Source: Micromonospora olivasterospora
GTDB taxonomy: Bacteria > Actinomycetota > Actinomycetes > Mycobacteriales > Micromonosporaceae
Length of the DNA stretch: 64,000 nucleotides
Direction of reading: 5' to 3'
Assembly: GCF_007830265.1 (NCBI RefSeq)
Contig: NZ_VLKE01000001.1
Location: forward strand, 1,984,001 to 2,048,000
Under the pieces are notes generated by a model that did not search any database, was not told where the DNA came from, and saw only the letters and a list, made by a program, of their open reading frames with translations. The number at the start of each line of letters is the position of its first letter. The first letter of the stretch is position 1. Made by a program: the position numbers and the translations under genes. Below are positions 22,887-63,383 of the stretch, one piece after another.

Positions 22887-22963
22887 TGGAGCCCCCGGCC
22901 GGGATCGAACCGGCGACATCTCGCTTACAAGGCGAGTGCTCTGGCCAGCTGAGCTACAGGGGC
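22887..22963 (-). tRNA. tRNA-Thr (anticodon UGU)
   Basis: On the minus strand the 5' acceptor GCCCCTG (from 22963) pairs with CGGGGGC (22897-22891). The anticodon stem CTCGC/GCGAG encloses CTTGTAA, giving UGU. The T arm contains GGTTCGATCC. Discriminator U and an encoded CCA follow (22889-22887). The cloverleaf is complete. Confidence 0.93.
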
Positions 22964-23191: not shown

Positions 23192-23326
23192 GCAGTGACA
23201 CGGACGACATCCGGCTGCCGTGAAGCTGCCCGGGCTGCCGTCCGATGACCGGCGTCACACGGCGCCGGTCGCTCCTTCACTCGGATCGTCCGGCACGTTC
23301 CTGCCGGTGAAAGGAAGCGCTCCAGC

Positions 23327-28067: not shown

Positions 28068-29387
28068 ATGCCCCCACAACCTCACCGACCCGGCGCGCTG
28101 GAGTGGCAGGTCTTCCGCGGCTCGGAGGCCGTCCGCTCCAGGCTGCTCACCCGGCACCAGCTCCGTGGCGCCTCCTGGCTGCGCGTGCGCCACGACGTGT
28201 ACGCCGACGTCCGCCTGCGCCGCGATCATGGGCTGGCCTGTCGCGCCGCCACGCTGCGGCTGCCGCCCGAGGCGGTGCTCGCCGGCCCCTCGGCGGCCTA
28301 CCTGCACGGCGTCGAGCACGCCGCGTCGTTCGCCGACGACGTGCACGTGCTCGTTTCGAGGTCGGCACGGGTCGACTCCCAGCCCGGCATCCGCGTCCAC
28401 ACGCTCGGCGCGGACCTCCCGATCCCGACGACCGCCGGCGCGGGCGCGGCAACCATCGCCGGCGCGGGCGCAGCAGCCGTCGTCGGCACGGGCGCAGCAG
28501 CCGTCGTCGGCGCGGGCGCGGCAACCGCCGGCACGGGCGCAGCAACCATCGCGGGCGCAGCAGCCGTCGTCGGCGCGGGCGCGGCAACCGCCGGCACGGG
28601 CGCAGCAACCATCGCGGGCGCGGGCGCAGCAGCCGTCGTCGGCGCGGGCGCGGCAACCGCCGGCACAGGCGCAGCAACCATCGCGGGCGCGGGCGCAGCA
28701 ACCATCGCGGGCGCGGGCGCAGCAGCCATCGTCGGCGCGGGCGCGGCAACCGCCGGCACAGGCAACCCGTCGGCGGGCGTCGGCGCGAGCCCGGGTGGCC
28801 TGCCGGCCGAGCCGGATCCGGCACCGGACTGCCCCTGCATGGTCGCCGACGACGCCGACGGGTTGCCGCGAAGTCAGCCGGCACAGGCCGCCTGGGAGAC
28901 GGCGGTGTGGCTGGAGCCCGTCCGGGCCGTGGCGATCGTCGACACCCTGCTCGGCAGGGGCCTGACGACCCGGGCCGCCCTGGCGGCGATCGCCGACCAC
29001 AACGCGGACCGGCCGGGCGGGCGGCGCGCCCAGTGGGTGTTCGGGCTCGCCGACGCTGGTGCCCAGTCACCGCCGGAGTCGTACCTTCGGGTCCGGCTCG
29101 TCCTGGCGGGTCTGCCCCGCCCGGTCACCCAGCACCCGGTGCGGCTGGCGTCCGGCCTGGTCCTGCACCCCGACCTGGCGTGGCCCGGCCTTCGGGTCGC
29201 GGTCGAGTACGACGGGCACTGGCACGCCGACGCCGAGCAACTGCACCGCGACCGGCAGCGACTCAACCACCTCGTCGCGGCGGGCTGGGTGGTGCTGCAC
29301 GTGACCAGCCGGCGGCTTCACCAGGATTTCCCGGCCGTGGTCCGCGAGGTGCGCGCCGCGCTGGTGGCCCGTGGCTGGCGGCGCTGA
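28068..29387 (+). CDS. AbiEi-like/DUF559 endonuclease-domain protein with expanded Gly-Ala repeat
   Basis: 439 residues. The N-terminal part (RSRLLTRHQLRGASWLRVRH, then SAAYLHGVEHAA) resembles the winged AbiEi antitoxin-like domain. The C-terminal part has the DUF559/Vsr-like nuclease core VLHPDLAWPGLRVAVEYDGH, with the D...E-x-D pattern of PD-(D/E)xK enzymes, then LVAAGWVVLHVTSRRL. Such proteins are common orphan genes in actinomycetes with unknown function. Between the halves lies a run of about 112 residues of Gly, Ala, Thr, Val and Ile (about 121-232) encoded by a minisatellite. No AbiEii toxin partner is present. Confidence 0.75.
   Translation: MPPQPHRPGALEWQVFRGSEAVRSRLLTRHQLRGASWLRVRHDVYADVRLRRDHGLACRAATLRLPPEAVLAGPSAAYLHGVEHAASFADDVHVLVSRSARVDSQPGIRVHTLGADLPIPTTAGAGAATIAGAGAAAVVGTGAAAVVGAGAATAGTGAATIAGAAAVVGAGAATAGTGAATIAGAGAAAVVGAGAATAGTGAATIAGAGAATIAGAGAAAIVGAGAATAGTGNPSAGVGASPGGLPAEPDPAPDCPCMVADDADGLPRSQPAQAAWETAVWLEPVRAVAIVDTLLGRGLTTRAALAAIADHNADRPGGRRAQWVFGLADAGAQSPPESYLRVRLVLAGLPRPVTQHPVRLASGLVLHPDLAWPGLRVAVEYDGHWHADAEQLHRDRQRLNHLVAAGWVVLHVTSRRLHQDFPAVVREVRAALVARGWRR
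28429..28763. repeat. In-frame coding minisatellite
   Basis: About 335 bases built from units such as GCGGGCGCAGCAACCATC and GCAGCCGTCGTCGGCGCG, grouped in a higher-order repeat of roughly 63-69 bases that recurs three to four times. All units keep the reading frame of the DUF559-type gene, giving repeats of AATAGTGAATIAGA and AAVVGAG. Near-identity of the units suggests recent expansion. Confidence 0.85.
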
Positions 29388-29439
29388 CCCGACGGAGGGG
29401 CACCTCGGCGCCGCCACCGCACGGCTCGGATCGCCGGCA

Positions 29440-29790
29440 CCCCGCCACATTCCCGACATGGCGCAGGCCGGGCCGCCCGGATACCGCCATGTCGCCGACA
29501 TGGCGCGGACCGACGCACCCGAACCCCGCCACGTCGCCGACATCGCGCGGACCGCGCACCCGAACCCCGCCACGTCGCCGACGCAGGCCGCCCGACATCG
29601 CGCAGGCCAACGCACCCGGATACCGCCATGTCGCCGACATGGCGCGGACCGACGCACCCGAACCCCGCCACCGCCGACGCAGGCCACCCGACATCGCGCA
29701 GGCCACCGCACCCCGATACCGCCATGCGCCGACATCGCGCGGACCGACGCACCCGAACCCCGCCACGTCGCCGACATCGCGCGCTCGCCT
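29440..29790. repeat. Array of CATGTCGCCGACATGGCG-type palindromic repeats
   Basis: About eight copies of a palindrome core (for example CGCCATGTCGCCGACATGGCG split as CGCCATGTCG-C-CGACATGGCG) are separated by CGGACCGACGCACCCGAACC or CAGGCC spacers, with a period of roughly 40-50 bases. Some copies lack one arm. The array ends exactly where the IS5 element begins, so the element inserted into it. No gene is credible here. Confidence 0.8.
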
Positions 29791-30816: not shown

Positions 30817-30820
30817 TCAG

Positions 30821-30983
30821 GCGGGGCGTGCGGGGCGGGCGGGGCGGGCGGGCGGGGCTGGCGGGGCGGGCGGGCGGGCGGGCGGCGCGGCGGCGCGCGG
30901 GCCGGGCGGGGCGGCGCGCGGGCGGGGCGGGCGGCGCGCGGGCGGGGCGGGCGGCGCGCTGGCGGGGCGGGGCGGGGCAGGGG
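30821..30983. repeat. G-rich low-complexity tandem repeat
   Basis: The plus strand is almost entirely GGGCGGGGC-type sequence, with a unit GGCGCGCGGGCGGGGCGG repeated three to four times. Multiple runs of three or four G could fold as G-quadruplexes. It fills the space between the IS right end and the DMT transporter 3' end and is non-coding. Confidence 0.8.
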
Positions 30984-55050: not shown

Positions 55051-55536
55051 CTAGGCCTCGGTCAGCACCTTGTCGAGCAGCGTCTCCGCCTCGTCCTTGG
55101 TGCTCTTCTCGGCCAGCGCGACCTCGCCGACGAGAATGTCGCGGGCCTTGGCGAGCATGCGCTTCTCGCCAGCGGACAGCCCCCGCTCCCGCTCCCGGCG
55201 CCACAGGTCGCGGACGACCTCGGCCACCTTCAGCGGGTTGCCGGAGGCCAGCTTCTCCAGATTCGCCTTGTAACGCCGCGACCAGTTGGTCGGCTCCTCG
55301 GTGTGCGGAGCCCGGAGGACGTCGAAGACCTTACCCAGGCCCTCCTCGCCGACCACCTCGCGCACACCCACGATCTCGGCGTTCTCAGCGGGCACCCGGA
55401 CCGTCAGGTCACCCTGCGCAACCCTCAGGACGAGGTACTGCTTGGGCTCGCCCTTGATGACCCGAGTCTCGATTGCCTCGATGAGTGCGGCCCCGTGGTG
55501 GGGGTAAACAACGGTCTCGCCGACACTGAAAACCAT
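55051..55536 (-). CDS. carD: CarD family RNA polymerase-binding regulator
   Basis: 161 residues. The N-terminal RNA-polymerase interaction domain starts [20 protein letters not shown]. The basic DNA-binding C-terminal domain includes [40 protein letters not shown] and the tryptophan that wedges the upstream edge of the -10 element. CarD stabilises open complexes at many actinobacterial promoters, notably rRNA. It heads the carD-ispD-ispF group. The ribosome site AAAGGGG is weak to moderate. Confidence 0.96.
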
Positions 55537-55864
55537 AGGTTCGAAACCCCTTTCGCTGTGTCTAGGGTAACACGCTCAGGCACCGATGTCCCACCGCTGT
55601 CCTGACCGTTGGCGCAGCTCAGGGGCCCTGTGAGAGGTATTTCTTCCGCTTGACAGGCGGCCAAGCCGATGGTTCGAACACGCTCCGTGATGGCCGTATG
55701 ACAACCCGGCACGGGTGATCGGGGCGTGGATTTCTCGGGCGATGCGCTCGTCCCATGGTATCCCGCTCGGGCCGACCGCGCCCAGGTGTAGCGGGAGGAG
55801 CCGACGGTGCGGGACGCTAAAGGCGAACCGCTGTCCGCGCGCCGAGACGGTTCGAGGGGGTCCG
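55537..55864. promoter_or_regulatory. Divergent intergenic region of carD and a membrane protein gene
   Basis: On the minus strand TACCCT near 55563-55568 could be the -10 box of carD, giving a leader of about 25 bases. On the plus strand TTGACA occurs at 55650-55655, but no good -10 box follows at 16-18 bases. No gene or repeat is seen in the remainder. Confidence 0.4.
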
Positions 55865-56596
55865 ATGGGCATGCCTGACGCAGACGGCTCCGGCCCCACC
55901 GACGGCCTCCCCGGCCTGCCGCCGGAGTGGGGCCGGGTGGTCGTGCCGGACGACGCGTCCGCGCTGGCCGAGGAGGCCGAGCAGGTCCGGCGCGAGCTGC
56001 GCCGACGGGCCGGCCGGACCCGGTGGCGTGGCCGGCTCGGCCTGGCGCCCCGCCCGGACGGGCGGCTCCCGCTCGGCCTGCCGCTGCTCGTCGTCCTGGT
56101 GGCGGTGCTCGCCACCGTCGCCGGGCTGTTCGCCGTCACCTGGCCCCGCCCGCCGCGCACCCCCGACCGGCCGACCGTCGAGCCGTACCCGACGCCGACC
56201 GACCTGACCGGCCGGCCGCTGCCCGCACTGGAGCTGATCGACGCCGAGAACGCGGCCGTCTCGCTGCGCGCGTCGCTCCCCGCGATGATCATCCTGGTGG
56301 ACGCGTGCGCCTGCCCGCAGCGCGTGGCCGAGGCCGCCGCGCTCGCGCCGCCGGGGGTGACCGTGGTCACCGTGACCGGCGGCCGTACGGTCGATCCCAC
56401 CACCGCCTCCGTCCCGCCGCCCGTCCGCGCGCTCGCCGACCCGGCCGGCGGCCTGCGGGCGTTCCTGCGCCTGCCGCCGCGGCCCGACACGGCGCCCGCC
56501 CTCCTGGTCGACCGCGGCGGGGCCGTGCTGCGCGTGGTGCCGGAGCTGCGCTCCGCCGAGGACTACCGCGCCGATCTGTCCCGTCTCGCCGCCTGA
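55865..56596 (+). CDS. Membrane-anchored hypothetical protein with thioredoxin-like C-terminus
   Basis: 243 residues. An acidic, helical cytoplasmic part (ASALAEEAEQVRRELRRRAG) precedes one membrane helix (LPLLVVLVAVLATVAGLFAV). The extracytoplasmic domain is LPALELIDAENAAVSLRASL, then MIILVDACACPQRVAEAAAL, then PALLVDRGGAVLRVVPEL, resembling a redoxin fold with a C-x-C instead of C-x-x-C. A redox or copper-handling role is possible but speculative. ATG 55865 follows GAGGGGG. It diverges from carD. Confidence 0.65.
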   Translation: MGMPDADGSGPTDGLPGLPPEWGRVVVPDDASALAEEAEQVRRELRRRAGRTRWRGRLGLAPRPDGRLPLGLPLLVVLVAVLATVAGLFAVTWPRPPRTPDRPTVEPYPTPTDLTGRPLPALELIDAENAAVSLRASLPAMIILVDACACPQRVAEAAALAPPGVTVVTVTGGRTVDPTTASVPPPVRALADPAGGLRAFLRLPPRPDTAPALLVDRGGAVLRVVPELRSAEDYRADLSRLAA

Positions 56597-56896
56597 TATC
56601 GCACGGGCGGGCGGCACCATGTCGGCGACGTGGGGGTGTCCGAACGTCACGGATGCCGCCAGGTCGGCGACACGGAGTGGATCATCCGGCTTAGGGAAAC
56701 ACGGTGGAGCAGGTGCGGGCCGCCGCGGGCGGCCACGACCCGGCGCTGCGCAGGCAGGCCGGGCGACAGCGTCAGCCGGGCCCGCCAGACCGTCCGGCTG
56801 AACTGCCCCGCGCCGCCGTGCGGGTCCCGCCGCCGGTCCCGCAGTACGGCGCGACAGGGCAGCAGGGCCCGCCGCGGTGGCCACGGCCCGCCGTCC
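56597..56896. other. 300-base intergenic region with palindrome remnants
   Basis: CATGTCGGCGACGTGG near 56620 and CAGGTCGGCGACACGG near 56665 are degenerate copies of the palindrome found in arrays at 27.9 and 29.4-29.8 kb. No gene with normal features is present, though open frames cross the region. Confidence 0.5.
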
Positions 56897-57946
56897 TCAG
56901 CCCTGGCGGTCCAGCAGTGCCGCGTACAGGGTCAGGCCGGGGCCGAACGCGAGCATCATGACCCGCCCCGGTGGCCGCGCCGCGCGCAGCAGCCGGTCGA
57001 GGATCAGCAGCACCGTCGGCGAGGAGCAGTTGCCGTGCTCGTCCAGCGTCGCCCGGGACGCGGCCAGCCCTTCCGCCGGCAGGGCCAGCTCGCGTTCCAC
57101 CACGTTGAGGATGCGCGGGCCGCCCGGGTGCACCGCCCAGCCGTCCACGTCGGCGGGGACCGCGCCGTGCCGGGCCAGCAGGTCGTCCACCAGGCCACGG
57201 ACGTGCGCGGAGAGCACCTGCGGCACCTTCGGCGACAGCCCCATCCGGAAGCCGGTGTCGGTGACGTCCCAGGTCATGTGGTCGGCGGTCGACGTGTCGG
57301 TGACCGAGGTGACCTCGCGCAGCGCGTACCCCCGGCCGTCGGGGACGACGACGGCGGCGACGGCGGCGTCGGAGAAGAGCGCGTGGGAGACGATCTGCTG
57401 GGTGTCCACCCGCGCCGTGGCGGGCTGGATGTGCAGGCTGGTCAGCTCCGCGCAGAGCAGCAGCGCGGGACGCCCCCGGGCGGTGACGAAGTCGCCCGCC
57501 GCCCCGAGCCCCGGCAGGGCGGCATAGCAGCCCATGTGCCCGACGAACATGCGCTGGGTGTCCGGGGCCATGCCCAGGTCGCGGGCGAGCAGGATGTCCA
57601 GCCCAGGCGTGGCGTACCCGGTGCACGAGCAGACCACGAACAGCCCGACGTCTCCGGCGGCCAGGCCGGCGGCCGTCAACGCCCGGCCGACCGCCTCCTT
57701 GCCCAGCGGCAGCGCCTCGACCTGGTAGCGCCGCATCCGGCGCTCGGTCGGCCAGTCCGAGACGTCCTCCAGCAGGGGATTGACCGCCGCCTGGCGCCGG
57801 CTCACGCCCGAGTTGGCGAAGATCCGCTGGGCCAGCGCCCGGGTGGCGCCGGCGAAGTGCCGGGAAAAGAAGCTCTCCCAGAGCTCGTCCTGCGCCGCAG
57901 CCGGCGGCTGCGCCACGCCCAGGCCCGCGATCACCGGTACGGCCAC
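56897..57946 (-). CDS. Type III polyketide synthase (chalcone/stilbene synthase family)
   Basis: 349 residues. The catalytic triad is present: Cys140 (GHMGCYAALPG), His273 (WAVHPGGPRI) and Asn306 (DEHGNCSSPTV). The C-terminal GPGLTLYAALL loop is family-typical. Such enzymes extend an acyl-CoA starter with malonyl-CoA and cyclise it to pyrones, resorcinols or naphthols. GTG 57946 was chosen for GAGGTGGGGGAC just upstream. It is followed, in order of position, by an acyl-CoA dehydrogenase fold enzyme, a methyltransferase and a UbiA prenyltransferase, together a compact biosynthetic cluster. The product cannot be predicted; an alkylresorcinol or quinone-like lipid is plausible. Confidence 0.9.
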   Translation of the reverse strand: MAVPVIAGLGVAQPPAAAQDELWESFFSRHFAGATRALAQRIFANSGVSRRQAAVNPLLEDVSDWPTERRMRRYQVEALPLGKEAVGRALTAAGLAAGDVGLFVVCSCTGYATPGLDILLARDLGMAPDTQRMFVGHMGCYAALPGLGAAGDFVTARGRPALLLCAELTSLHIQPATARVDTQQIVSHALFSDAAVAAVVVPDGRGYALREVTSVTDTSTADHMTWDVTDTGFRMGLSPKVPQVLSAHVRGLVDDLLARHGAVPADVDGWAVHPGGPRILNVVERELALPAEGLAASRATLDEHGNCSSPTVLLILDRLLRAARPPGRVMMLAFGPGLTLYAALLDRQG

Positions 57947-58034
57947 GTCCCCCACCTCTCGTCCGCCAGCCCTCTTCACCACGTCGCATTCCGTTCGCGC
58001 TGCGGGACGGGCAACCGCGGCCCGTTCCTCGCAC

Positions 58035-59201
58035 TCACCAACGAGGGGCGGTGCCGTCGCGGTCCGGGTCCCCGCCCAACGCGGCGACGCCCAGCCAGTC
58101 CGCGCACACGTCCGAGGTGGCCGGGTGCAGCGAGCCGCACCGGGCGTCCCGGTAGAGCCGCTCCAGCGGGTGGCCCCGGCGGGTCGCCGAGGTGCCCGCG
58201 GCCTCCAGCATGGACGCTGCCACCTCCGCCGCGGTGGTGCCGGCGAGCAGCTTGGCGCGCCACACCCAGCGGTTGGTCTCCGCGTCCCCGGGCGCCTCGT
58301 CGACCCGGCGGGCGGCCTCGGCGACCGCCAGTCCGGACGCCGCCACCGCCGCGTCGGCGCGGCCCAGGCGGGCCCGGACCGCCGGCAGGCCGGCGAGGTT
58401 GCGGACGTTCGCGTGCTCCGCCGCCGCGTCGACGGCGGCCCGGGCCACCCCGACGTAGACCGCCGCGTAGCTGGCCACCAGCCAGTGCGGCATGAGCTGG
58501 GCGACCACCAGGGCCAACCCTTCCACGCCGCCGAGCAGCCGGTCCGCTGGCACGGTCACGTCCAGGTGCAGGTCGTGCGAGGAGGTGGCGCGCATGCCGA
58601 GCGAGTCCCAGGTCGGCTCGACCGTCAGCCCGTCGCCGGCCGGCACCAGGAACTGGGAGACCAGCGACGGGTCGGCGGCGCTGCGGGCGGCCACCAGGTA
58701 GCCGTCGGCGTGCCCGGCGCCGGAGCAGAACGTCTTGCTGCCCTTGAGCCGGAAGCCGCCGTCCACCGGCTCGTACACCGTGCTGAGCTGGGAGAGCCGG
58801 GCGCCCGCGCCGCGCTCGCTCATCGCCACCGCGTACCAGGCGCCGTCGGCCGCCGCGCGCAGCAGCCGGTCCCGGGCGGCCAGCGCCTCGTCCGGCACGC
58901 CGAGGGCCCCGGCCAGCTCCTCCGTGACCGCGCCGAGCGCGCCGGTGACCGAGGCGTGCATGTTGAACACGAGCGCGGTCGCGCCGTTGCCCCTGGCCAG
59001 CTCGGTGGCCACGGCGGCGTACCCGGCGAAGGTCGCCCCCGAGCCCCCCAGCTCCGGCGGCACCATCAGCCCGAACAGCCCGGCGTCGCGCAGGTCCCGG
59101 AAGTCCTCGACCGGGAACGTGCCGTCCCGGTCGTGCTCCGCCGCCCGGGCGGCGAAACGCGGCGCCAACCGGCGGGCCGCCTCCAGCGCGTGCACAGTCA
59201 T
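58035..59201 (-). CDS. Acyl-CoA dehydrogenase family flavoprotein
   Basis: 388 residues. The three ACAD parts are visible: helical N-terminus (FRDLRDAGLFGLMVPPELGG), FAD-binding beta domain (AVAMSERGAGARLSQLSTVY, FRLKGSKTFCSGAGHADGYL) and helical C-terminus (GHPLERLYRDARCGSLHPAT). The usual catalytic glutamate region is not obvious, so it may be a fatty acyl dehydrogenase or, like DszC/HsaA-type flavin monooxygenases of the same fold, a hydroxylase. Placed between a type III PKS and a methyltransferase on one strand, ring hydroxylation of the polyketide is an attractive inference. Confidence 0.82.
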   Translation of the reverse strand: MTVHALEAARRLAPRFAARAAEHDRDGTFPVEDFRDLRDAGLFGLMVPPELGGSGATFAGYAAVATELARGNGATALVFNMHASVTGALGAVTEELAGALGVPDEALAARDRLLRAAADGAWYAVAMSERGAGARLSQLSTVYEPVDGGFRLKGSKTFCSGAGHADGYLVAARSAADPSLVSQFLVPAGDGLTVEPTWDSLGMRATSSHDLHLDVTVPADRLLGGVEGLALVVAQLMPHWLVASYAAVYVGVARAAVDAAAEHANVRNLAGLPAVRARLGRADAAVAASGLAVAEAARRVDEAPGDAETNRWVWRAKLLAGTTAAEVAASMLEAAGTSATRRGHPLERLYRDARCGSLHPATSDVCADWLGVAALGGDPDRDGTAPRW

Positions 59202-59245
59202 ACCGTCCCCTCTCGGCGTCCCCTGACGTTCCCGCCCCGGCCCGG

Positions 59246-60022
59246 CTACCCGCGCCGGACGCCGCGCCCCTGGTAGAGCACCGCGGTGGACCAGGTGGGC
59301 TTGATCTCCGGCGCCGGCCCGGCCGGCGTCGACTGTGGACCTCGGCGGCCGGCGGCGCGCGCCCGGCGGACGAGCCAGCGCAGCGTGCCGCGTAGCCCCG
59401 GGCGCACGCCCCGGACCCGCAGGTCCACGCCGTGCCGGGCGCACTCGGCGATCAACTGCCGGTGGTCCACGAACAACCGTGGGTCGTGGATGCCCCGGGG
59501 CACGGTCGGCAGCCGCTCGCCGATCTCGACTGCCAGGAGCCGGCAGAGGACGGTGTCGTTGAGGGTGTCCAGCACCAGCAGGCCCCCCGGCCGCAGCAGC
59601 CGGCACGCCTCGGCGACCGCCCGCCGCCAGTCGGGGACGTGCTCCAGCACCTCCCCGGCGGCCACCACGTCGGCGCAGCCGTCGGCCAGCGGCACGGCGG
59701 TGGCGTCGGCGTTGACCACGGTCACCCCGTGCTCGGCGGCCTGGGCCAGCGCGGAGCGGGTGAGGTCCACCCCGACGTGCCGGTAGCCCTTCCCGGTCAG
59801 GTGGGGAGCGAGCAGCCCGGCGCCGCAGCCCAGGTCGACCAGCAGCGCGCCGGGACGCGGGGCCGGCGGCACCAGCGCCGCCCGGGCCCGGGCGAGCCAG
59901 TGCAGCATGGCGAAGACCCCGTCCGGGCGCCACCACTCGTCGGCCAGGTCGTCGTACTGCCGCGGATCGTTCGGCGGCAGCACGCGGCCACCGGCGGACA
60001 CCGGGGACGAACCCTCTCCCAT
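59246..60022 (-). CDS. Class I SAM methyltransferase, UbiG-like
   Basis: 258 residues. NDPRQYDDLADEWWRPDGVF resembles the UbiG N-terminus. The SAM-binding motif is LVDLGCGAGLLAPHLTGKGY, with ADATAVPLADGCADVV and EVLEHVPDWRRAVAEACRLL as motifs II and III. UbiG enzymes O-methylate hydroxylated aromatic quinone precursors, which suits a cluster with a polyketide synthase, a possible hydroxylase and a prenyltransferase. ATG 60022. It diverges from the UbiA gene, only 45 bases away. Confidence 0.85.
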   Translation of the reverse strand: MGEGSSPVSAGGRVLPPNDPRQYDDLADEWWRPDGVFAMLHWLARARAALVPPAPRPGALLVDLGCGAGLLAPHLTGKGYRHVGVDLTRSALAQAAEHGVTVVNADATAVPLADGCADVVAAGEVLEHVPDWRRAVAEACRLLRPGGLLVLDTLNDTVLCRLLAVEIGERLPTVPRGIHDPRLFVDHRQLIAECARHGVDLRVRGVRPGLRGTLRWLVRRARAAGRRGPQSTPAGPAPEIKPTWSTAVLYQGRGVRRG

Positions 60023-60067
60023 TGCACGAGCGTGGCACGACTGGGCGGTAACGGCCAGACTTCCCTT

Positions 60068-60910
60068 ATGTCGACGATGGTGTTAGGGCTGGTCAGGGCG
60101 AGCCACCCGGAGCCCGCCGCGGCCGTCACCGCGGTCGCCGGGCTGCTCGCCTGGGGCGTGGGGCACCGCCCGGCCGGGGTCGCCGCGGTGACCCTCACCG
60201 TGCTGGCCAGCCAGCTCGCGGTCGGCTGGTCCAACGACCACCAGGACGCCGACCGCGACGCCGCGGTGGGGCGTACCGACAAGCCGGTGGCCGCGGGCAC
60301 GGTGAGCCGGCGGGCGGTCGGCCTGGCCACGCGGGCCGCCACCCTGGTCACGGTCGTGCTCGCGGCGGCGGCCACCAACCGCGCGGCAGCGCTCTGCGCG
60401 GCCGCCGGTCTGGTCTCCGCGCTGTTCTACAACTGGCCGCTGAAGTCGACACCGGCCTCCGTGCTGCCGTACGCGGTGTCGTTCGGCAGCCTGCCCGCCT
60501 TCGTGGTGCTGGCCCTGCCCGGCGCGCCCGTCCCGCCCGCCTGGCTGGTGGCCGCCGCCGCCCTGCTCGGCGCCGGCGCGCACTTCGCCAACGTGCTGCC
60601 GGACCTGGCCGACGACGCCCGGACCGGGGTGCGCGGGCTGCCGCACCGGCTCGGCGCGACCGGCAGCCGGCTGGCCGCCGCCGCGCTGCTGCTGGCGGCG
60701 ACCGGCACGCTGGTCGTCGGGCCGCCCGGGCCGCCGTCGTGGGCCGGCCTGTCGGCCCTCGCGGCGGCCGCCGTGGTGCCGCCCCTGACCTGGTACGTCA
60801 CCAGCCGCGTGGGTGGGGCCGGCGTACGGGGGGTGGCGGCGTTCCGGGCGGTGCTGCTGGTGGCCCTGATCGACGTGGTGCTGCTGGTGGCGAGCGGCCG
60901 GGTCGTCTGA
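60068..60910 (+). CDS. UbiA family prenyltransferase
   Basis: 280 residues with about eight or nine membrane helices. The first aspartate motif is NDHQDADRDAAVGRTDKP (from Asn56) and the second is LPDLADDARTGVRGLP (Asp179 onward), which bind Mg-prenyl diphosphate. It attaches an isoprenoid chain to an aromatic or other acceptor in the membrane. Adjacency to a type III PKS and UbiG-like methyltransferase suggests a prenylated polyketide. ATG 60068; it shares a very short divergent promoter region with the methyltransferase. Confidence 0.9.
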   Translation: MSTMVLGLVRASHPEPAAAVTAVAGLLAWGVGHRPAGVAAVTLTVLASQLAVGWSNDHQDADRDAAVGRTDKPVAAGTVSRRAVGLATRAATLVTVVLAAAATNRAAALCAAAGLVSALFYNWPLKSTPASVLPYAVSFGSLPAFVVLALPGAPVPPAWLVAAAALLGAGAHFANVLPDLADDARTGVRGLPHRLGATGSRLAAAALLLAATGTLVVGPPGPPSWAGLSALAAAAVVPPLTWYVTSRVGGAGVRGVAAFRAVLLVALIDVVLLVASGRVV

Positions 60911-61048
60911 CGCCGCCCCGGGCAGGTGGTGGTGCCGGGTCGCCGTCCGGGCCTCGATCAGCCCCAACTACCCTGGATCCCGGTCTGCGCGGGTATGGCC
61001 ACCGCGCCCGGGAACAGCCGGGTGGGGATCGTGACGAGGAGGACCGAC

Positions 61049-61846
61049 GTGACGCGCTCGATCAGGGGACCCCGGCGGGCGGCCCTGCTGCTGGCCGGCA
61101 CGGCCGCGGCGACCGGCCTGCTGCTCTCCGGCTGCGGGTCCGGGCAGATTGCCGAGACCGCCGTCAAGCAACCGTCGGTGCAGGGCGTCAACGTCCAGAC
61201 CCCGGACAACGAGCTCAAGGTGCGCGGCCTGTACGTCGAGTACCCGGGCCCGACCGGCTACCAGGCCGGGGCGAACGCCGCGCTCAACGCCGTCATCTAC
61301 AACGACTCGACGGAGGCGGTGACGCTGACGGTCACCACGGACAGCGCCCGCGAGGTCGTCGTCTCCAGCGGCTCGGCCAGCCCGTCGGCCCCGGCCGGCG
61401 CGTCGCCGTCCGAGCACGCGTCGCCGTCGGAGCACGCCTCGCCGTCGGAGCACGCCTCGCCGTCCGCGTCGGCCAGCCCGTCCGAGAGCGCGGCGCCGTC
61501 CGAGTCGGCCAGCCCGTCCGAGAGCGGCTCGCCGTCGCCGGCGCCCTCGGAGAGCCCGGCCGCGCCGGCCGGCGAGCCGGCCCGGATCGAGATCCCGGCC
61601 AACAGCTACGTCCAGCTCAACGTCCAGGGCGGCCGGTTCCTCCAGCTCGTCGGGCTGAACGAGCGGCGGCTCGTCGGCGAGTCGGTCAACCTGGTCTTCG
61701 ACTTCGGCAACGGCAGGACGATCAGCGCGGCCGCGGCGATCGGCGTCCCCCTGACCCCGGGCGCGCCGGCCTCCCCGATCATCGAGCGCGAGGGCGGGCA
61801 CGGCGCGGAGGGCGGCACCGAGGCCGGCTCCGGCGGGCACGGCTGA
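61049..61846 (+). CDS. LpqE-like lipoprotein
   Basis: 265 residues. GTG 61049 follows GAGGAGG and opens a lipoprotein signal with lipobox LLSGC. The domain (NNELK-type DNELKVRGLYVEYPGPTG, ANAALNAVIYNDSTEAVTLT) is followed by a Ser/Pro/Glu repeat insert (SPSEHASPSEHASPSEHAS and SPSESAAPSESASPSES) and then NSYVQLNVQGGRFLQLVGL. The fold resembles PCu(A)C/DUF461 copper-chaperone-like proteins, but no Met/His copper motif is clear. In M. tuberculosis the lipoprotein LpqE lies between carD and radA, the same context as here. Confidence 0.75.
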   Translation: MTRSIRGPRRAALLLAGTAAATGLLLSGCGSGQIAETAVKQPSVQGVNVQTPDNELKVRGLYVEYPGPTGYQAGANAALNAVIYNDSTEAVTLTVTTDSAREVVVSSGSASPSAPAGASPSEHASPSEHASPSEHASPSASASPSESAAPSESASPSESGSPSPAPSESPAAPAGEPARIEIPANSYVQLNVQGGRFLQLVGLNERRLVGESVNLVFDFGNGRTISAAAAIGVPLTPGAPASPIIEREGGHGAEGGTEAGSGGHG

Positions 61847-61934: not shown

Positions 61935-63383
61935 GTGACGACGTCCCGATCGACCTCCTCCCGGGCCACCCCGCGCGGCGCGGGCCGGGCCGCGCGCGAG
62001 CCCCGCCCGGCCTACGAGTGCGACGCCTGCGGTCACCAGCCCCCGAAGTGGGTGGGGCGCTGCCCCGAGTGCGGCGAGTGGGGCTCGGTGGTCGAGTGCA
62101 CGGTGACCGGCCCGACGGTCTCCGGGCGGGTGGTCAGCTCCCGGATGCCGGCCGAGCCGGCCCGCCCGATCGCCACCATCAGCGCCGCCCCGGCGCGGGC
62201 CCGGCCCACCGGCGTCAGCGAGCTCGACCGGGTGCTCGGCGGCGGGTTGGTGCCCGGCGCGGTGGTGCTGCTGGCCGGCGAGCCGGGGGTCGGCAAGTCC
62301 ACGCTGCTGCTCGACGTGGCCCAGCAGTGGGCGGCCAACGCCGGCAGCCCGTCGCTGGTGGTCAGCGGGGAGGAGTCGGTCAGCCAGGTGCGGCTGCGCG
62401 CCGAGCGGATGGGCGCCCTGCACGACCAGCTCTGGCTGGCCGCCGAGAGCGACCTGGGCGCCGTCCTCGGCCACCTCGACGCGGTCAAGCCGGGGCTGCT
62501 GGTGCTCGACTCGGTGCAGACCATCTCCATGGTCGGCACGGAGGGGGTGCCCGGCGGGGTGACCCAGGTGCGGGCGGTCACCGCCGCACTGGTGGCGGTG
62601 GCCAAGGAGCGCGGCATCGCCACGGTGCTGGTGGGGCACGTGACGAAGGACGGCCAGGTGGCCGGCCCCCGGGTGCTGGAGCACCTGGTCGACGTGGTGC
62701 TGCACTTCGAGGGCGACAAGCACTCCTCGCTGCGGATGGTGCGCGGCGTGAAGAACCGGTTCGGGGCCGCCGACGAGGTCGGCTGCTTCGAGATGCACGA
62801 GGGGGGCATCAGCAGCCTCGCCGACCCGTCCGGCCTGTTCCTCACCCGCTACTCCGAGCCGGTGCCCGGCACCTGCGTGACGGTGGCGATGGAGGGGCGG
62901 CGCGCCCTGGTCACCGAGGTCCAGGCGCTGATCGGGGCGACGGTCGCCGGCTCGCCCCGGCGTACGGTCTCGGGGCTGGACGGCGCGCGGCTCGCGATGG
63001 TGCTGGCGGTCCTCCAGCGGCGCACCGAGCGGCTGACCCTGCACGACCGGGAGGTCTTCGCGGCCACCGTCGGCGGCATCCGGGTGGTGGAGCCGGCGGC
63101 GGACCTGGCCGTCGCCCTCGCGGTGGCGTCCGGCGGCCTCAACCTGGCCCTCGACCCGCACCTCGTCGCGATCGGCGAGGTGGGGCTGACCGGCGAGGTG
63201 CGGCGGGTCGGCGCGGTGCCGCGTCGGCTGGCCGAGGCGGCCCGACTGGGCTTCCGGGTGGCCCTGGTCCCGCCCGGGTGCGGCCCCGCGAAAGCGGGCG
63301 CCGGCCCGGAGAACATGCGGGTGATGGAGGTCACGGATTTGCGTACGGCCCTGCAGTGTGCCGCCCGCGCTTCGGTGGAGTGA
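61935..63383 (+). CDS. radA: DNA repair protein RadA
   Basis: 482 residues. The N-terminal zinc finger uses Cys29, Cys32, Cys43 and Cys46 (ECDACGHQPPKWVGRCPECG). Walker A is GEPGVGKST at 115-123. The RadA-specific KNRFG is at 273-277, and the C-terminal Lon-like domain has the LTGEVRRVGAVPRRLAEAA block. RadA drives branch migration in recombination. The GTG start is six bases after TAGCGT (61923-61928), a leaderless pattern. disA follows, as in most actinobacteria. Confidence 0.96.
   Translation: MTTSRSTSSRATPRGAGRAAREPRPAYECDACGHQPPKWVGRCPECGEWGSVVECTVTGPTVSGRVVSSRMPAEPARPIATISAAPARARPTGVSELDRVLGGGLVPGAVVLLAGEPGVGKSTLLLDVAQQWAANAGSPSLVVSGEESVSQVRLRAERMGALHDQLWLAAESDLGAVLGHLDAVKPGLLVLDSVQTISMVGTEGVPGGVTQVRAVTAALVAVAKERGIATVLVGHVTKDGQVAGPRVLEHLVDVVLHFEGDKHSSLRMVRGVKNRFGAADEVGCFEMHEGGISSLADPSGLFLTRYSEPVPGTCVTVAMEGRRALVTEVQALIGATVAGSPRRTVSGLDGARLAMVLAVLQRRTERLTLHDREVFAATVGGIRVVEPAADLAVALAVASGGLNLALDPHLVAIGEVGLTGEVRRVGAVPRRLAEAARLGFRVALVPPGCGPAKAGAGPENMRVMEVTDLRTALQCAARASVE

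Follow-up and report, generated by a model that had tools for sequence, protein, structure and literature searches.

The four-gene set between carD and radA

The window analyzed here is a stretch of 64,000 nucleotides from Micromonospora olivasterospora (positions 1,984,001-2,048,000 of contig 1; genome 7.07 Mb). It contains an intact set of four genes (Table 1). Three of them, for a type III polyketide synthase (PKS), an enzyme of the acyl-CoA-dehydrogenase (ACAD) fold and a class I methyltransferase (MT), share one strand, and the fourth, for a UbiA prenyltransferase, is divergent. The intergenic gaps in this order are 52, 44 and 45 bases, the last of which separates the MT start from the UbiA start on the opposite strand. 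All four proteins score above the curated Pfam cut-offs (Chal_sti_synt_N/C; Acyl-CoA_dh N/M/C; Methyltransf_11; UbiA), and open frames together with these matches confirm the genes where the original prediction had placed them. The wider gene order is DisA (its start only, at the window edge), RadA, an unnamed gene at 61004-61846, the four genes, one called gene, CarD, IspD, IspF and a TPR protein. Family models back this order except for the two unnamed genes, and they bear out the earlier naming of carD, ispD and ispF as neighbors.

Table 1 Coordinates of the four-gene set and its flanking genes in the window
Feature	Position	Strand	Family match
Type III polyketide synthase, LosA orthologue, AgqA type, alkylresorcinol synthase	56897..57982	-	Pfam PF00195/PF02797
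Acyl-CoA-dehydrogenase-fold enzyme, putative flavin-dependent ring hydroxylase	58035..59201	-	Pfam PF02770/02771/08028/00441
Class I SAM methyltransferase, predicted O-methylation	59246..60022	-	Pfam PF08241, 81.2 bits
UbiA-family membrane prenyltransferase, predicted O-prenylation	60068..60910	+	Pfam PF01040, 92 bits
Conserved neighbor between carD and PKS; explanation works without it	55715..56596	+	No Pfam/NCBIfam match
carD, left housekeeping boundary	55051..55536	-	Pfam CarD_C and CarD_TRCF_RID
radA, right housekeeping boundary, past the 61004-61846 gene	61935..63383	+	TIGR00416, 480 bits

The conserved neighbor between carD and the PKS gene is matched in 75 of 80 named loci with 46-77% identity; by eye, its product resembles a membrane-anchored thioredoxin-like protein. 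The 61004-61846 gene, formerly described as LpqE-like, has no Pfam match, and its only NCBIfam match, to ClfA, is weak, at 23.6 bits where the cut-off is 1150. This putative lipoprotein gene carries an 18/36-base tandem repeat (61399-61536) that encodes Ser/Pro-rich repeats. Promoter and terminator scans of positions 56500-61100 found none, with shuffle means of 0.0 and 0.3. Elsewhere in the window, three clusters of tandem repeats lie at 28433-28752, 29439-29783 and 30820-30982, the last of them in a 2-kb stretch with a strong AT skew (0.212). An msiK RNA (RF01747, 51.5 bits), which is a cis-regulatory element, is found at 23264-23322 close to a tRNA-Thr(TGT) at 22887-22963.

The PKS probably starts at a GTG at 57946, behind GAGAGGTGGGGG. 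Counted from this codon, the catalytic triad is C140-H273-N306, exactly as numbered in the original prediction, which corresponds to C152-H285-N318 in the longest frame. The Cys-His-Asn triad is invariant in 39/39 rows, namely the window and 38 of the 39 loci read in wide context (L130 was omitted, as the matched piece is short). Two other identities for the PKS were rejected: a tetrahydroxynaphthalene-type enzyme, as PF08392 (FAE1/RppA) scores 34 bits versus 64 and 73 for the two chalcone/stilbene models, and DpgA, with 148 bits versus a cut-off of 425. The MT had been called UbiG-like, which is fair as a likeness; it is not UbiG by TIGR01983, whose cut-off of 102.95 bits lies above its score of 93.6. 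The UbiA protein matches PF01040 and contains the two Asp-rich motifs of the prenyltransferases, N56xxxD60xxxD64 and N175xxxD179xxxD183, both kept in 29/29 rows; these comprise the window and those 28 of the 39 loci in which the match was of sufficient length. Solved UbiA relatives gave no sequence match to it at E 0.001.

Relation to the agq and los clusters and the proposed pathway

The losA (loseolamycin) locus of Micromonospora endolithica (BGC0002362) is given in Table 1 of PMC7587189, in the accessible part of that paper, as DisA, RadA, a hypothetical, UbiA, methyltransferase, acyl-CoA dehydrogenase, losA, two hypotheticals, CarD, IspD, IspF and a TPR protein. The order from disA to the TPR gene matches that of the window, except between losA and carD, where the published table lists two hypotheticals and a single gene was called in the window. 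The M. endolithica locus in our comparison (L022) has the same gene order, with identities of 92, 91, 83 and 74% for the PKS, ACAD-fold, MT and UbiA proteins. Gene content, order, motifs and orthology with the losA locus are the basis of the assignment: the PKS triad is intact, the ACAD-fold, MT and UbiA genes are adjacent, and both orthology and locus are shared with the losA region. We take the MT of the window to be of the AgqB type, the ACAD-fold enzyme of the AgqC type and the UbiA protein of the AgqD type. In Awakawa et al. 2011 (ChemBioChem 12:439), agqB-D reportedly encode a methyltransferase, an ACAD homologue and a UbiA prenyltransferase, and the steps of AgqB, AgqC and AgqD are said to be assigned.

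The agqABCD cluster of Actinoplanes missouriensis, likened here to the window set through the accessible published descriptions, likewise comprises a type III PKS gene and the three further genes agqB-D. Its products are 6-alkyl-4-O-dihydrogeranyl-2-methoxyhydroquinones, according to the available text of PMC3569393, and that of PMC7692728 equates agqA plus orthologues of agqB-D with this product. As excerpted in PMC4044012, the prenyltransferase of Awakawa 2011 O-prenylates a small polyketide in vitro. The product, the agqA-D orthologue rule, a Micromonospora agq-type cluster and the in vitro O-prenylation are thus covered by the accessible parts of PMC3569393, PMC7692728, PMC9967187, PMC10896814 and PMC4044012. 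No named A. missouriensis locus is among the best 80 of 263 named loci; in the g27 genomes of the family, the PKS is 72-74% identical. The srsABC set of Streptomyces griseus, to our knowledge, has no UbiA gene and an oxygenase of another class than the window set. Alkylresorcinols from its type III PKS are oxidized to alkylquinones, as described in the available part of PMC10896814.

All this indicates that the window set very probably represents the known agq/los phenolic-lipid cluster in its Micromonospora form, including its proposed pathway. The original prediction recognized no characterized product for the combination; it equals the published agqABCD and loseolamycin loci. A claim of discovery does not stand, as the cluster type, the product class and the presence in all 70 surveyed Micromonospora genomes are already known.

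The ring formation, flavin-dependent hydroxylation, O-methylation and membrane prenylation that had been proposed from the window fit the published agq pathway. The type III PKS would condense a long-chain acyl-CoA with three malonyl-CoA to yield a 5-alkylresorcinol, one hydroxyl of which would be O-methylated by the MT. The ACAD-fold flavoenzyme would then hydroxylate the ring para to the free hydroxyl to give a methoxyhydroquinone, and UbiA would transfer a C10 chain onto the original resorcinol oxygen to produce a 6-alkyl-4-O-(dihydro)geranyl-2-methoxyhydroquinone. The likely product is best described as a methylated, hydroxylated, O-prenylated alkylresorcinol. The order of the steps and the C10 donor are what we infer for M. 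olivasterospora, and the product class, the alkylresorcinol formation by LosA and the in vitro O-prenylation by the enzyme of Awakawa 2011 come from the literature. No reductase-like gene for the dihydro step is found in the four-gene cluster. Two genes of the GGR superfamily elsewhere in the genome score over the cut-off and are mere candidates for a dihydrogeranyl reductase; eight genome stretches over the cut-off for polyprenyl synthase are likewise no more than candidates.

Alternative readings of the gene set and the ACAD-fold enzyme

Among the best 80 of 263 named loci, 69 hold all four genes and 58 the complete order from radA to carD. The remaining 22 comprise 16 truncated at contig ends, 5 without the ACAD gene and 1 without a detectable match to the 55715-56596 gene. 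In near-full-length matches among the named loci, the PKS is 82-93% identical across 80 loci and the ACAD-fold enzyme 87-93% identical across 73, far beyond chance. The set also occurs beyond the family. A class-wide sample queried with the ACAD-fold protein gave matches at 1e-60 in 28/393 genomes. Four of these genomes, counting that of the window itself, belong to its genus, and the remaining 24 are spread over seven other families. The context was read for 22 of these 24 loci: the PKS and MT genes adjoin the ACAD-fold gene in all 22, and UbiA was detected in 14; of the eight loci where it was not, two lie on contigs of 4-5 kb. These counts bear on the reading that the end product is a plain loseolamycin-type alkylresorcinol, with the other three genes devoted to a different purpose. 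It draws on the activation of losA in S. albus, which yielded loseolamycins A1/A2, alkylresorcinols undecorated on the ring (PMC7587189, accessible part). The same text states that the strong promoter was placed on losA only, and the association of the four genes within the family and of three of them outside it makes this reading highly improbable. The position of UbiA on the other strand might suggest that the four genes act in separate, unrelated pathways and adjoin by accident. Cluster comparison across genomes, which the original prediction had proposed as a check, contradicts this, as all four genes recur with other flanks in those 14 loci of other actinomycete families; the chance of such an accident appears negligible.

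The C-terminal segment of the ACAD-fold protein is YRDARCGSLHPATSDV. Pro360 occupies the column of the catalytic Glu of IxEGT-type dehydrogenases, so this segment lacks the Glu of a classical acyl-CoA dehydrogenase, and the Pro is invariant in 39/39 rows (the window and 38 loci). For comparison within the genome, stop-to-stop frames around 20 ACAD-domain matches were aligned; L210 repeats L207 and L211 repeats L209, L214 is unclear, and L195, L196, L200, L202, L205, L208, L212 and L213 were excluded as misaligned or in the wrong frame. The catalytic Glu is present in six different frames (L197, L198, L199, L206, L207 and L209). L201, L203 and L204, which align cleanly, are also without Glu in that column, so its absence alone is no proof of a monooxygenase. 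Isovaleryl-type acyl-CoA dehydrogenases use an alternative base, and the Glu comparison covers the IxEGT segment. A rival reading is that the enzyme is a genuine acyl-CoA dehydrogenase and introduces a double bond into the starter of the PKS. Acyl-CoA dehydrogenases predominate among its PDB matches, with the top two both annotated as "acyl-CoA dehydrogenase type 2 domain protein", and the best NCBIfam model is the acyl-CoA dehydrogenase Rv1679 (FadE16), with 157 bits far under its cut-off of 600. Nitrososynthases (3mxl, DnmZ) and DszC monooxygenases are, however, within the first 15 PDB rows. Together with the Pro for Glu, which counts against a dehydrogenase in spite of L201, L203 and L204, these matches favor ring hydroxylation without proving it. 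The agq product, in the accessible descriptions, also carries the hydroxyl. We regard the dehydrogenase as unlikely; a flavin-dependent ring hydroxylase is the most likely function of the ACAD-fold enzyme.

Distribution, absence of the ACAD gene and the question of inheritance

Within the family, the PKS query gave a match at E 0.001, weak matches included, in 298 of 300 sampled genomes. The match is strong (1e-90 or better, counted by eye) in 277; in 21 the best match ranges from 2.1e-43 to 1.9e-4, and two genomes have none. All rows of the same genus match at 8.9e-125 or better, and genus g15 (11 genomes) has weak matches only, which indicates that the cluster is common in the family, not universal. 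The loseolamycin cluster is recorded in 70/70 Micromonospora genomes of the antiSMASH database in the available part of PMC11960110, which cautions that antiSMASH compound names may not equal the real products and allows that the loseolamycin match may be real. An agq-like cluster is present in all analyzed Salinispora arenicola strains (PMC9181873, excerpt). As for the compounds, wild-type M. endolithica yielded no detectable loseolamycins (PMC7587189), and a search for agq products in four Phytohabitans type strains carrying the orthologues was negative (PMC7692728), as stated in the accessible parts of both papers.

At least three lineages lack the ACAD gene and retain PKS, MT and UbiA; two of them were placed on a tree, and g42 is known from one locus and genome searches. 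L009 (M. rubida), L026 (sp. MW-13), L047 (M. haikouensis) and L053 (sp. ATCC 39149) have full context and no ACAD gene, and their MT and PKS matches are spaced just 83-204 bases apart. Searches of these four genomes for an ACAD gene elsewhere (E 1e-20) gave matches of at most 36% identity, against 91-92% in the controls L010, L021 and L022. In a quick tree of RadA+PKS+MT (65 rows), the four group together (96), and the closest relative of their clade is the window, which retains the ACAD gene. L025 (M. mirobrigensis), with ACAD matches only to residues 1-18 and 354-388, is a separate change on this tree. For genus g42, the single locus examined (L140) has UbiA-MT-PKS and no ACAD, and the seven g42 genomes searched contain nothing above 41% identity. 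The prenylated oxygen would, from the product name, be the original resorcinol one, and UbiA and MT could therefore still act without the hydroxylase.

The neighborhood of the cluster was compared in other families as well. carD and/or radA lie in the same 9-13 kb stretch in 5 of the 22 outside loci, one in f9, one in f12 and three in f13 (L128-L130, L145 and L147). This occurrence in other families, partly at the same place, hints at an old, mostly inherited pathway. Of 12 f18 genomes searched, 11 have carD and radA at most about 3 kb apart, and the cluster has another location. As the carD-radA neighborhood exists without the cluster, the earlier suggestion that nearby ispD/ispF supply isoprenoid precursors is weak, and the neighborhood is no sign of a dedicated supply. 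Quick trees of PKS+ACAD+MT and of RadA, each with 36 rows (4 of 40 were dropped for a missing or short gene), concur on the family core, f18 and f13 as groups. They conflict for the family member G010, whose cluster groups with f5 (98) and whose RadA falls inside the family (99). They also conflict within f18, where G518 is outermost for the cluster (100) but joins G413, G383 and G582 for RadA (100). In G010 (L138) the cluster is located away from carD/radA, with UbiA and MT rearranged. Transfer is the probable origin of that copy on its tree placement, and the two conflicts indicate that transfer occurs at least sometimes; ancient inheritance is not settled.

The Pro in place of Glu, the lineages without the ACAD gene and the copies in other families were not met in the accessible portions of the literature examined, and they refine a known system. 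Among the literature matches listed, no title concerned inheritance of the agq/los cluster in Micromonosporaceae; loss of the ACAD gene lay outside that search. The lineages without the hydroxylase gene are ready-made knock-outs for the order of the steps. We tentatively suggest, as a possibility somewhat short of even, that agq/los is not a roaming secondary-metabolite cluster but an old pathway for membrane lipids, passed on largely vertically and anchored between carD and radA, and that its ring-hydroxylase step was dropped repeatedly. If so, species without the hydroxylase gene would have a second, non-hydroxylated lipid class, the O-prenyl O-methyl alkylresorcinols. The cellular role of agq-type lipids is called enigmatic in the accessible text of PMC10896814, and a cluster so widespread and positionally fixed raises the question of what that role is.
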